From NCBI RefSeq assembly GCF_000294655.1, contig NZ_CAHP01000034.1:1-64000 (forward strand): DNA of 64,000 bases, read 5' to 3'. Positions 18,937-30,160 of the stretch are shown here, in pieces. The position numbers were made by a program, and so were the translations under genes. The notes under the pieces were generated by a model that ran no database searches, was not told where the DNA came from, and was given only the letters and a program-made list of their open reading frames with translations. Positions within the stretch are counted from its first letter, which is position 1. Every line of letters begins with the position of its first letter. Source of the DNA: Magnetospirillum molischianum DSM 120. GTDB lineage: Bacteria > Pseudomonadota > Alphaproteobacteria > Rhodospirillales > Magnetospirillaceae.

Positions 18937-19926
18937 ATGGTGCGTTACGAGAAGGCCGACACACTGTTGCAGTTGGCGATGGATATGCAGGCGGCCCGGG
19001 GCGGGTTGTCGCTTGGCGATATCGAGGACCGGTATGGGGTCGGTCGCCGCACCGCGATGCGAATGCGCGACGCCGTACTGCGCAGCTTCCCCCAGGCCGA
19101 AGAGGTTGCCACCGACGAACGGATCAAGCGCTGGCGTCTCCCCGCCGGAACGCTCAACAGGTTGGTTGGCTTTACCGCCGAGGAACTGGCGTCGCTTGAA
19201 GCCGCCGTCCAATTGCTCGATCGCGATAACCGCGAAGACGAGGCGGACACTCTTGCCGCGCTGTCGGCCAAACTGAAGGCTCTGATGCGGCCCGAGGTTG
19301 CCCGCCGGGTCGAGCCCGATTTAGAGGTTTTGCTGGAGGCCGAGGGGCTGGCGATGCGCCCCGGCCCACGTCCACGCATTAAGGTGATGGTGCTCGAGGA
19401 TCTGCGCGAGGCAATCAAGGGCAGCCGTAAGGTGCGGCTCCGCTATAGGAAAAGGGGGATGCACCAAGTCAAAGAGCGTCTGGTTCATCCCTACGGCTTC
19501 CTCTACGGCCATCGCAACTATCTGGTCGGCTTGCATGAGAACCCCAAGGCTAACAAGGTGGTTCTGTTCAGCCGGCTCAATATCGAGGCGGTCGAGGTGT
19601 TGTCTGACGGTTTTGTCCGTGATCCAGATTTCGACCTCTCCGCCTACGCCGCGCAATCGTTTGGCCTGTTCCAGGACGAACCATTCGCGCTGGTGTGGCG
19701 CTTTGCTCCCGAGGCGGCCGACGACGACGCCGATTTCGTCTTCCACCCCAGCCAGGAGATCGAGCTTCAGAATGACGGCTCGCTTCTGGTCCGCTTCACC
19801 GCTTGCAGCGACCTCGAGATGGCTTGGCACCTGTACGCCTGGGGCAACAAAGTCGAGGTGCTGGAACCGGCGCGGTTGGCCGCGATGGTCAACGGCAACC
19901 GCATGGCGTGGCCCGCGCTGCCCTGA
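18937..19926 (+). CDS. WYL-domain transcriptional regulator of the CRISPR-Cas locus
   Basis: This 329-residue protein has an N-terminal winged HTH (GGLSLGDIEDRYGVGRRTAM) and a central WYL domain around residues 160-230 (VRLRYRKRGMHQVKERLVHP, YGFLYGHRNYLVGLHEN). A C-terminal WCX-like extension ends DLEMAWHLYAWGNKVEVLEP. WYL proteins bind nucleic-acid ligands and often control type I CRISPR-Cas systems. It lies 55 bases before cas3 on the same strand, with a perfect palindrome in the gap. The start at 18937 matches the HTH. Confidence 0.87.
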   Translation: MVRYEKADTLLQLAMDMQAARGGLSLGDIEDRYGVGRRTAMRMRDAVLRSFPQAEEVATDERIKRWRLPAGTLNRLVGFTAEELASLEAAVQLLDRDNREDEADTLAALSAKLKALMRPEVARRVEPDLEVLLEAEGLAMRPGPRPRIKVMVLEDLREAIKGSRKVRLRYRKRGMHQVKERLVHPYGFLYGHRNYLVGLHENPKANKVVLFSRLNIEAVEVLSDGFVRDPDFDLSAYAAQSFGLFQDEPFALVWRFAPEAADDDADFVFHPSQEIELQNDGSLLVRFTACSDLEMAWHLYAWGNKVEVLEPARLAAMVNGNRMAWPALP

Positions 19927-19946
19927 TGTGACCGCTTTGGTCACAT
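19926..19946. promoter_or_regulatory. Perfect palindrome between the WYL gene and cas3
   Basis: ATGTGACC-GCTTT-GGTCACAT has perfect 8-base arms and a 5-base spacer. It touches the WYL stop codon and ends 35 bases before cas3. A half-site, GGTCACAC, occurs at about 18901-18909 upstream of the WYL gene itself. It may be the operator of the WYL protein or an attenuating hairpin; no T run follows. Confidence 0.55.
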
Positions 19947-19981
19947 GGCCGTGAGAGGGTTCTGGCATGATGGAGGGGGTG

Positions 19982-28501: not shown

Positions 28502-28778
28502 GAACGTTCCGCCCCGCCTGCGCGGCCGCTTGGCTGTGTGGCTGTTGGAAGTCCGAGCCGGTGTTTATGTCGGCGATTACGGAGCCAAGGTGCGCGACAT
28601 GATCTGGCGACAGGTCCAGGAGAATATCGGCTCCGGCAATGGCGTGATCGCCTGGACCGCGCCGACTGAAGCCGGGTTTGTCTTCGATACCTGCGGTACC
28701 AACCGACGCGATCCCGTCGATTATGATGGCTTCCCCCTGGTCGCGTTTAAGCCCCCTCTCACCGATAAGACGCGATAA
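28482..28778 (+). CDS. cas2: Cas2, type I-E
   Basis: This 98-residue protein begins [20 protein letters not shown], then [20 protein letters not shown], the hallmark of I-E Cas2. It dimerises and bridges two Cas1 dimers in the integration complex. The start lies inside the end of cas1. The array leader begins directly after its stop. Confidence 0.95.
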
Positions 28779-28850
28779 GAACATACAGAAAACCTCGGTG
28801 TGCTGTTTGACATCGTGAATCTGTTGGCTAAACAATGGTCTCCAGCCAGA
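28779..28850 (+). promoter_or_regulatory. CRISPR leader with array promoter
   Basis: These 72 bases separate cas2 from the first repeat. A perfect -35 hexamer TTGACA (28807-28812) is followed after 16 bases by TAAACA (28829-28834), giving a start near 28841, just before the first repeat. AATCTGTTGGCTA (28819-28831) only weakly resembles an IHF site. Confidence 0.65.
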
Positions 28851-30160
28851 CCGTTCCCCGCGCCTGCGGGGATGAACCGTGGTTTGGGGCGGTCGGCAAT
28901 GGCGTTACAAACCGTTCCCCGCGCCTGCGGGGATGAACCGCACTGCTTGGAGCGTGCTTATGCTCTGCCGTGCCGTTCCCCGCGCCTGCGGGGATGAACC
29001 GTCCACGCCAGCGCGGGCCAGCGGGTCAAACGCCCGTTCCCCGCGCCTGCGGGGATGAACCGCGTCGCGATGCGTTGAGCATGGTCCGCGCTGTCCGTTC
29101 CCCGCGCCTGCGGGGATGAACCGGAGGGATCGTGATCATGAACCCGGAAGGCGGACCGTTCCCCGCGCCTGCGGGGATGAACCGTGCGGGGGCAACATCC
29201 ATAGACCCATCGCCACCCGTTCCCCGCGCCTGCGGGGATGAACCGGCAGAAGGAGCTGGAACTTGATGCTAAAGGCTCCGTTCCCCGCGCCTGCGGGGAT
29301 GAACCGCATCCAGGGTGCCATTCCACTTGCTGCCTGTCCCGTTCCCCGCGCCTGCGGGGATGAACCGGCTCAGTTGGACCTTTGGGAGAGCGCTGCTCGC
29401 CGTTCCCCGCGCCTGCGGGGATGAACCGTCGCTCGGGGTGTTGGTGCCGTTCAGGCGCGACCGTTCCCCGCGCCTGCGGGGATGAACCGCCTTTTTGACA
29501 CGGGAGACGGCTATGGCACGTCCGTTCCCCGCGCCTGCGGGGATGAACCGGACACGCTCGACCGGCTCGACAGTCAGCGAGACCGTTCCCCGCGCCTGCG
29601 GGGATGAACCGGCCGGAGCTATCGCGCTGGAGCATGCCGACGCCCGTTCCCCGCGCCTGCGGGGATGAACCGTCACATCGCCAGCGCTTTCGATCCACAC
29701 GCCCCCGTTCCCCGCGCCTGCGGGGATGAACCGCCGACGATGAACACGCCGCCGATGATCGAGGCCCGTTCCCCGCGCCTGCGGGGATGAACCGGCCCAC
29801 CGCGCCGAATATGGGTCTACGTCGCTCCGTTCCCCGCGCCTGCGGGGATGAACCGACCACGACTTCATTCGCATTACCACCATCGACCCGTTCCCCGCGC
29901 CTGCGGGGATGAACCGGGTGATGACTCCTGTCGGGTGGAGGTGGCCGGCCGTTCCCCGCGCCTGCGGGGATGAACCGACTTGCCGAGTATGACGCAGCCG
30001 CGTCAAAAACCGTTCCCCGCGCCTACGGGGATGAACCGCGCGCTGACGCCATCGTCAAAGTGGCCGACCACCGTTCCCCGCGCCTGCGGGGATGAACCAC
30101 GGGCATTAATTTCGTTCTCGCCACCGTCGGCCCGTTCCCCGCGCCTGCGGAGATAAACTG
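28851..30160 (+). CRISPR. Type I-E CRISPR array, 22 repeats and 21 spacers
   Basis: The repeat is 29 bases: CCGTTCCCCGCGCC, T, GCGGGGATGAACCG. The period is exactly 61, with 32-base spacers. GTTCCCCGC pairs with GCGGGGA-type bases to form the Cas6e hairpin, and the last eight bases ATGAACCG form the crRNA 5' handle. The first 19 repeats appear identical. Repeat 20 (30010) has one change, repeat 21 (30071) ends in A, and repeat 22 (30132-30160) is degenerate (GCGGAGATAAACTG), marking the old end. All spacers differ. The array shares strand with the cas genes. Confidence 0.98.

Follow-up and report, generated by a model that had tools for sequence, protein, structure and literature searches.

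Clustered regularly interspaced short palindromic repeats (CRISPR) with their cas genes are already known as cargo of integrative and conjugative elements (ICEs), where subtypes I-C and III-A and type IV have been described (PMC11656645, PMC9841420). According to the excerpted text of PMC9841420, seven I-C systems lie in ICEs or integrative and mobilizable elements (IMEs), and the CRISPR-bearing plasmids and ICEs/IMEs measure 102–430 kb. Here we describe a type I-E system of Magnetospirillum molischianum DSM 120, found in the first 64 kb (the window, the whole stretch of DNA analysed) of the 178,676-bp contig NZ_CAHP01000034.1 of a genome of 3.8 Mb in 61 contigs. Its carrier is an ICE of predicted mobility inserted at the 3′ end of a tRNA-Glu gene, in which the system occupies the interval between a predicted origin of transfer (oriT) and the relaxase gene traI.

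With the I-E system of Escherichia coli K-12 MG1655 the locus shares the order of the eight cas genes, 199 of 303 positions in Cas1, 60 of 94 in Cas2 and the catalytic residues, and its array period of 61 nt is that of E. coli as well. It differs in being ICE-borne, in the gene for a DriD-like WYL regulator placed in front of the cas genes, in the abutment of the array on the relaxase gene and in its more diverged Cascade subunits. Plasmid-borne I-E systems (Acidiphilium pACRY02, Methylobacterium currus, Roseomonas marmotae, Paracoccus aestuarii) have the same cas order and Cas1 proteins 68–72% identical to ours, but no relaxase gene was present in the stretches opened and all four plasmids are classed as non-mobilizable by PLSDB. 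These four hold full operons and Cas1 homologues occur on 180 of 72,556 plasmid records (153 of them covering at least 80% of the query), and the statement of the initial annotation that complete I-E systems are usually chromosomal was thus too strong. The I-C systems of Pseudomonas aeruginosa likewise travel as ICE cargo, but they belong to another subtype, and the excerpted text of PMC9841420 mentions no slot between oriT and traI. Type IV systems resemble ours in residing on plasmids and ICEs (PMC11656645, in excerpt), whereas our locus has Cas3 and the adaptation genes, and none of the five spacers searched matches a plasmid. Hotspots of P2 phages, P4 satellites and Pseudomonas islands also combine fixed sites with exchangeable antiviral cargo (excerpts of PMC9122126 and PMC12629846); the site described here, in contrast, lies between the oriT and the relaxase gene of an ICE. 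Among the matches listed for the main texts of the open-access literature we found no account of a trailing defence slot between oriT and traI, and this slot, its repeated use by I-E systems and the DriD-like regulator are possibly new.

The slot probably holds a working I-E system with its WYL regulator, which would serve mainly to protect the host against phages, the host in turn spreading the ICE. After establishment of the ICE in a recipient the cas operon would be expressed, new spacers would be added at the cas2 end of the array, and a host protected in this way, mainly against phages, would keep and spread the element. The ends of the ICE, the oriT-like site, the slot, the open cas genes, the exchange of cargo and a second I-E system of other descent are read from the sequence, to which the order of transfer, expression, the anti-phage role and WYL control at a palindrome are added as predictions.

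The I-E module and the cargo slot

The WYL regulator gene, the eight cas genes in canonical order and the 22-repeat array of the initial annotation were all recovered by NCBIfam, Pfam and a repeat search. In the order Cas3, Cse1, Cse2, Cas7, Cas5, Cas6e, Cas1e and Cas2e, each product passed at least one curated NCBIfam cut-off; Cas3 fell short of the cut-off for the full-length equivalog PRK09694 (442 of 569 bits), yet passed two domain models. All eight frames are open. The catalytic motifs, also described earlier as intact, are conserved in alignment: E141, H208, D218 and D221 of Cas1, E9 and E65 of Cas2, the HD, Walker A and DEVH motifs of Cas3 and His20 of Cas6 (E. coli numbering). The E. 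coli positions used for this comparison are those which we presume to be catalytic; four of 12 presumed positions in Cas3 and one of two in Cas6 proved wrong and were disregarded. Eight cas genes at one locus, 29-nt repeats with 32-nt spacers and these residues identify the system as type I-E, and the presence of Cas3, Cas1 and Cas2 sets it apart from type IV and CRISPR-transposon systems, in which the Cas3 nuclease or the adaptation genes are lost. The array has a period of exactly 61 nt, with changes in its last three repeats. As had been reported, seven bases (30161–30167) form the whole gap between the last repeat and the traI stop. The misassembly considered earlier for this junction is unlikely, because the backbone similarity to two other elements breaks off only a few bases from where the array ends and the same array-to-traI order exists in a genome of another genus.

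At the other end of the cargo, upstream of the recombinase gene, lies a block common to four Magnetospirillum stretches (the window, L021, L023 and L072; L, G and C numbers denote our loci, genomes and contigs), in which, on the minus strand, GCGTGGTGGGCCCACCACGC runs straight into CTATCCTG/CCC. In RP4 substrates CTATCCTG/CCC follows an inverted repeat (PMC4814116) and MOBP enzymes require ATCCTG (PMC3772185), both sources being cited from excerpts. The block has an inverted repeat directly before (C/T)ATCCTG(C/T), as an RP4-type MOBP oriT does, nicking itself being predicted. The motif was sought in the correct orientation and at most 1.2 kb upstream of recombinase genes in 45 stretches totalling 822 kb, 30 of which have a recombinase. 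It was found at 25 of the 30 recombinase loci, compared with 33 copies across all 822 kb, and in 23 of the 25 a perfect 20-bp palindrome whose letters covary on both arms directly precedes it; L149 has a palindrome with one mismatch and L133 has none. Two further loci, L136 and L146, combine the variant motif ATATCCTG with a perfect palindrome. The predicted T-strand starts at 17842 and heads to lower coordinates, with the recombinase side first, then traI and the CRISPR cargo last; from the polarity of nic, given relaxase chemistry, we infer that the cargo would be the last part to enter the recipient.

The similarity of related elements to the window breaks off at 17930 (L023), 17962 (L072) and 17972 (L021) on the left and resumes at 30171 (L021, L023) on the right. 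The cargo therefore extends further left than 18937, to about 17930–17972, just past oriT. Comparison of ICEs with the same relaxase at this point, proposed in the initial annotation, gave two elements of the same genus whose relaxases are 90–94% identical to ours and which have no cas match there: the interval holds IetA and IetS in G005:C20 (L021) and an ORF (open reading frame) of 1331 aa, with a best match of only 7e-4, in G015. The cargo of the window also includes an ORF of 66 aa (18088–18288, minus strand) with an upstream palindrome ATGAC-N7-GTCAT (18324–18340), a layout like that of the palindrome before cas3.

Relaxase searches yielded 15 loci in a named collection and, at E 1e-60, hits in 40 among 317 genomes of the order. 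In 29 elements and the window, one to a few large ORFs each, lying behind traI or in the interval from traI to the recombinase gene, were scanned with PADLOC, a match being classed as strong at E ≤ 1e-12 or by cas genes and as weak from 1e-12 to 1e-5; some of the elements are close relatives. The scan gave 19 strong, four weak (L104, L128, L142, L158) and seven blank results. Besides the window, the strong group contains a second I-E system in L122 (found by tblastn, the single scanned ORF of this locus being without a PADLOC match), IetAS in L021 and IetS in L150, type I restriction-modification (RM) in L138, L143 (additionally with Zorya), L153 and L155, type I RM with PrrC in L100, type III RM in L154, Druantia III in L101, a Zac/DruE-like system in L102, PD-Lambda-5 in L133 and L157, an LmuB-like system in L139, PDC-S06 in L140, an Avs1b-like system in L145, DISARM in L151 and Gabija in L156. 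In 13 of the 19 (the window, L021, L100/L149, L122, L133, L139, L145, L150, L153, L154, L155, L156 and L157) the cargo is bounded by a recombinase. Thirteen further traI-bearing stretches stood outside the scan (L026, L103, L105, L106, L107, L125, L129, L130, L134, L136, L144, L146, L159), the slot of L130 being nearly empty, and ranges containing stop codons were left out (L008 from the relaxase alignment, one on L078 from one scan). On plasmid pCSC3H3 of Thalassospira marina, RM and MZA genes (RefSeq annotation) lie between traI and a palindromic oriT.

These data suggest an ICE family, defined here from sequence, in which the interval between oriT and traI serves as a slot for exchangeable cargo, often defence systems, with the exchange taking place at a single, well-bounded site next to the transfer genes. 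Several ORFs behind traI had no PADLOC match at 1e-5 (L023:3455-7450, L135:5261-9289 and L096:7397-12479, with ORFs of 1331, 1342, 1124 and 567 aa) and are candidates for new defence systems. In G149:C1 two copies of a related element (L128 and L129) lie about 525 kb apart, and the lengths of their ORFs behind traI largely agree.

The second I-E system stands on one contig of the Thalassospira-group genome G286 (L122) in the order of the window: recombinase, the cas genes from cas3 to cas2, an array of 40 exact repeats, and traI. The array ends about 130–180 bp before the traI stop, depending on whether a degenerate last repeat is included. Its Cas1 is 66–68% identical to that of the window and its repeats differ. 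In a ten-row Cas1 tree the sequence from the window clusters with that of G208 (96/95), and the one from G286 with that of a Paracoccus plasmid (100/100). Since both the Cas1 lineages and the repeats differ, two captures of I-E are the simplest reading, so that the slot would have taken up complete adaptive immunity of different descent twice; the whole suggests that related mobile elements spread interchangeable immunity modules. Before cas3 of G286, at the place of the WYL gene, is an ORF with a weak phosphoribosyltransferase match (L122:4191-5294; E 3e-4). An I-E system in the slot of G179 was considered and dropped, the cas genes and traI of this genome being on different contigs.

The carrier element and a probable truncated relative

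The earlier description of a complete I-E system within a conjugative module is borne out by the carrier (Table 1), which has a defined site with repeats and an ICE-free relative, a recombinase, a relaxase, a coupling protein, and ATPases and channel of a type IV secretion system (T4SS). Its core repeat TTGGGGACGCCA occurs twice only in the window (8332–8343 and 51837–51848), against 0.02 expected in shuffles. Chromosomal similarity to G005 and G015, of the same genus, ends with the final base of tRNA-Glu (8343), and similarity to G015 starts again at 51919; the ICE-free site of G015 consists of tRNA-Glu, about 680 bp of other sequence and the homologue of 51919. The boundaries 8344 and 51848 follow from the 12-bp repeat and this ICE-free site, which mark both ends. 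A longer att duplicate was sought with the last 14–30 nt of the tRNA and none was found, the 12-bp repeat having emerged from reading of the right junction. The left flank comprises a MurJ gene and the tRNA-Glu gene, the right flank CcmC-, CcmE- and CcmF-type genes (Pfam), and an Rfam scan at the gathering threshold returned nothing besides the tRNA.

Table 1. Coordinates of the ICE and of the features described in the window
Feature	Position	Strand	Basis and remarks
ICE	8344..51848		43,505 bp; ends from 12-bp repeat and ICE-free site in G015:C18
attL core TTGGGGACGCCA	8332..8343	+	3′ end of tRNA-Glu (8268-8343)
Large serine recombinase	16080..17681	-	Pfam Resolvase, Recombinase, Zn_ribbon_recom; sole integrase candidate found
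oriT (predicted)	17842..17870	-	Perfect 20-bp palindrome 17851-17870, then CTATCCTG/CCC on minus strand; nic between 17843 and 17842
Cargo, oriT to traI	17966..30170		Left limit uncertain, 17930 to 17972
DriD-like WYL-WCX regulator	18859..19926	+	Pfam, PDB chain matches; start possibly 18937
Candidate operator	19926..19946		Perfect palindrome ATGTGAC-N7-GTCACAT between wyl and cas3 (40-bp gap)
cas3	19967..22705	+	NCBIfam; HD and helicase motifs
cse1	22608..24410	+	NCBIfam; longest ORF, true start probably more internal
cse2	24407..24898	+	NCBIfam
cas7	24753..26123	+	NCBIfam; longest ORF
cas5	26116..26838	+	NCBIfam
cas6e	26784..27545	+	NCBIfam and catalytic residue check
cas1e	27545..28501	+	NCBIfam; catalytic residues kept
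cas2e	28413..28778	+	NCBIfam and catalytic residue check
Leader	28779..28850	+	Assigned by position only, cas2 to first repeat
CRISPR array	28851..30160	+	22 repeats of 29 nt, 21 spacers of 32 nt
traI, MobP relaxase	30168..31934	-	NCBIfam/Pfam
NikA-like accessory protein	31931..32392	-	Pfam
ArdC N-domain, zincin and Toprim protein	32568..34694	-	Pfam
T4SS coupling protein	34872..36692	-	Pfam
VirB-type T4SS genes	36835..49631	-	VirB11-, VirB10-, VirB9-, VirB8- and VirB4-type by Pfam, plus ORFs without match
ParA-like ATPase	50685..51419	-	
attR core TTGGGGACGCCA	51837..51848	+	

Tyrosine integrases gave 17 PF00589 matches genome-wide and none on the ICE contig. In G005 a recombinase 98% identical as protein lies about 6.7 kb from the same tRNA-Glu, which ties this recombinase to the tRNA-Glu site. 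Within the T4SS region a VirB6-like match stayed under the cut-off and the VirB4 match covers part of the protein; toxin-antitoxin type genes (TacA-like, HigB-like) are also present on the ICE.

The locus of G005:C22 (L072:6000-16400), at this same tRNA-Glu, contains the recombinase gene and the oriT. It also carries an endonuclease-like gene, one for a type ISP restriction-like enzyme and three repeats of the window's type; no match to cas, traI or relaxase genes was found in the stretch, which adjoins a chromosomal rearrangement. We read it as a truncated relative of the ICE because it retains the 98% identical recombinase and the same oriT. It bears on the counter-evidence named in the initial annotation, a cas locus at the same chromosomal place without the transfer genes.

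Elsewhere in the M. molischianum genome, a 661-bp piece of contig C32 (L076:3876-4536) fuses copies of window positions 40314–40539 and 50792–51224 at 93–95% identity and is perhaps a remnant of a further ICE copy, while an 84% identical copy of the left end (8352–8674) lies on contig C15 (L077:10500-10823) with no tRNA directly before it.

Role of the system, rival explanations and the WYL regulator

Spacers S1–S5 were searched in plasmids and phages, S1–S8 in viral contigs (as patterns of 20 fixed bases across the first 23) and all 21 in 2.0 Mb of fetched sequence. Only S1 was matched in the viral contigs, by 25 of 32 bases with the flank GAC, in frame with WFGAVGNGTTDDTAA of an 819-aa ORF resembling a tail spike; we presume WFGAVGNGTTDDTAA to be a tail-spike motif. 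S2–S8 gave nothing in the viral contigs, and S1–S5 had no match at E 0.1 in phages or in the 72,556 plasmid records. The AAG-like protospacer-adjacent motif proposed in the initial annotation could be checked on one partial protospacer only, that of S1, with its GAC. In the fetched sequence, bases 9–32 of S10 match the chromosome of M. molischianum itself at 22 of 24 positions with the seed end mismatched (G000:C34:76760-76783, L002:12760-12783; E 0.001), and S20 matches a chromosomal locus of G010 at 25 of 31 (E 0.004). Both score better than any of the 21 window spacers when reversed (best 0.037), but neither beats the best of G286's 39 reversed spacers (0.001), and we treat them as unproven. 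CRISPRs on ICEs and IMEs of ESKAPE species target mostly prophages, but also other ICEs and IMEs (PMC9841420, in excerpt). By this analogy, host protection, mostly against phages, is the likeliest role of our system, a view held with moderate confidence.

Several observations weigh against this picture. Its anti-phage part is mostly analogy, because one of eight spacers was matched in the viral contigs, at 25 of 32 bases and with a GAC flank. Among the 317 genomes, Cas1e (E 1e-90) occurs in 14, traI in 40 and both in three (G000, G179, G286), which is about the chance level; the two genes are adjacent in two of these three. Seven of the 30 elements had no PADLOC match at 1e-5 (L023, L094, L096, L097 with AbiEii at 3.5e-5, L098, L099, L135), and in six of the 19 strong cases (L101, L102, L138, L140, L143, L151) the stretch contains no recombinase match and the far end of the slot is unseen. 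The scanned ORFs were mostly picked by size, which biases the result to restriction and helicase genes, and the sole control was small, with none of six other ORFs of our ICE matching PADLOC at 0.001. No palindromic oriT was found in L122 (G286), L133, L134 and L135. In six Roseibium plasmids whose tra operon is similar, the cargo after traI is mostly unrelated to defence, one of them having a caspase gene, and in two more distant plasmids tra genes follow traI. A 12-bp att at the end of a tRNA gene is more typical of tyrosine integrases, and Pfam scans identified no small T4SS subunits in the ICE.

The unnamed T4SS parts would also fit a decayed, immobile ICE whose CRISPR-Cas genes are now an ordinary chromosomal system of the host, as would the presence of a close Cas1e in one of 17 genomes of the genus, with no sign of recent spread within it; nevertheless, the relaxase, the coupling protein, VirB4-, B8-, B9-, B10- and B11-type genes, the oriT-like site, the recombinase and the att cores are all present with open frames, and we regard decay as quite unlikely.

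Still less do we favour the idea that the ICE uses its CRISPR system to attack competing conjugative elements, in the manner of plasmid-borne type IV systems; this is very unlikely on the present evidence. The targeting of other ICEs and IMEs in ESKAPE species, where prophages are nevertheless preferred (PMC9841420, in excerpt), gives it a precedent, and sibling elements with relaxases 90–94% identical exist in the genus as possible rivals. However, none of the 21 spacers matches a related element above the best reversed window spacer (E 0.037, a value tied by S18 in L102), and S1–S5 are without plasmid or phage matches, so that the attack on rival plasmids and ICEs suggested in the initial annotation finds no support in these searches.

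Least likely of all is a chance merger, at tRNA-Glu, of a CRISPR island and a separate conjugative element, by which the nearness of array and traI would be meaningless: the G005 site does have a recombinase, oriT and three repeats and, over the stretch, matches neither relaxase nor cas genes, and its recombinase segment shows 94% DNA identity against about 70% on the sibling traI contig, but the recombinase–oriT–cargo–traI order recurs in many elements, G286 has its second I-E system in that same order, and the G005 stretch keeps oriT and lies at a chromosomal rearrangement.

Control of the cas operon by the WYL protein, acting at the palindrome before cas3, is inferred from the following comparison. 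The protein matches PDB chains 8tp8 (E 1e-57) and 9pfq (E 5e-57) over nearly its full length, chains which we take to be Caulobacter DriD. Their residues are consistent with the numbering of PMC12340889. An in-frame ATG at 18937 may well be the true start of wyl, because the similarity to the solved relative begins right after it. WYL regulators next to defence systems are known (PMC9122601), and DriD is activated by single-stranded DNA (ssDNA), promotes transcription at ATACGAC-N7-GTCGTAT and contacts RNA polymerase via R121, R122, P125 and E128 among other residues (PMC12340889), both papers being cited from excerpts. Whole-protein similarity and the WYL and WCX domains make our protein DriD-like, its ssDNA binding being predicted, and the stretch taken for the recognition helix (GVGRRTAxRMRDAV) is kept. 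Of ten polymerase-contact positions compared, R121, R122, P125 and E128 are retained, whereas the other six (G18, A20, D71, F74, S118, R120) carry substitutions, among them Arg at position 20, which is said to require a small residue. Unlike DriD, the protein is encoded beside cas genes, and the palindrome before cas3 agrees with the DriD box at ten of 14 positions, four being off; no DriD box with up to three mismatches was found in the window.

A more far-reaching version would see in the slot a dedicated trailing position that delivers immunity after safe entry, with the DriD-like activator letting ssDNA from conjugation or phage breakdown trigger the mobile CRISPR by switching on cas3, interference and spacer uptake. 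If this were true, the trailing immunity slot would be the mirror image of the leading region of plasmids with its anti-defence genes, and a true DriD-like link would offer an explanation, open to experiment, of how incoming DNA is sensed by a mobile CRISPR system. We rate this version lower, as unlikely, because six contact positions are changed and such palindromes are common in the window: GAC-N7-GTC palindromes with 7-nt arms number three against 0.13 expected, and 7-N7-7 palindromes of any letters are in excess too, with 22 against 6.6. The core TGTGAC-N7-GTCACA is present at 12556 and 19927 of the window, at L021:336 and L021:6005 and at L072:6327, with seven copies in 2.07 Mb when overlapping loci are counted more than once; another regulator of the ICE, for example its HTH protein encoded at 12335–13105, could read the site, because parts of sibling ICEs that lack a WYL match have this core as well. 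Upstream of wyl, the longest inverted repeat is TATCGTG-N17-CACGATA.

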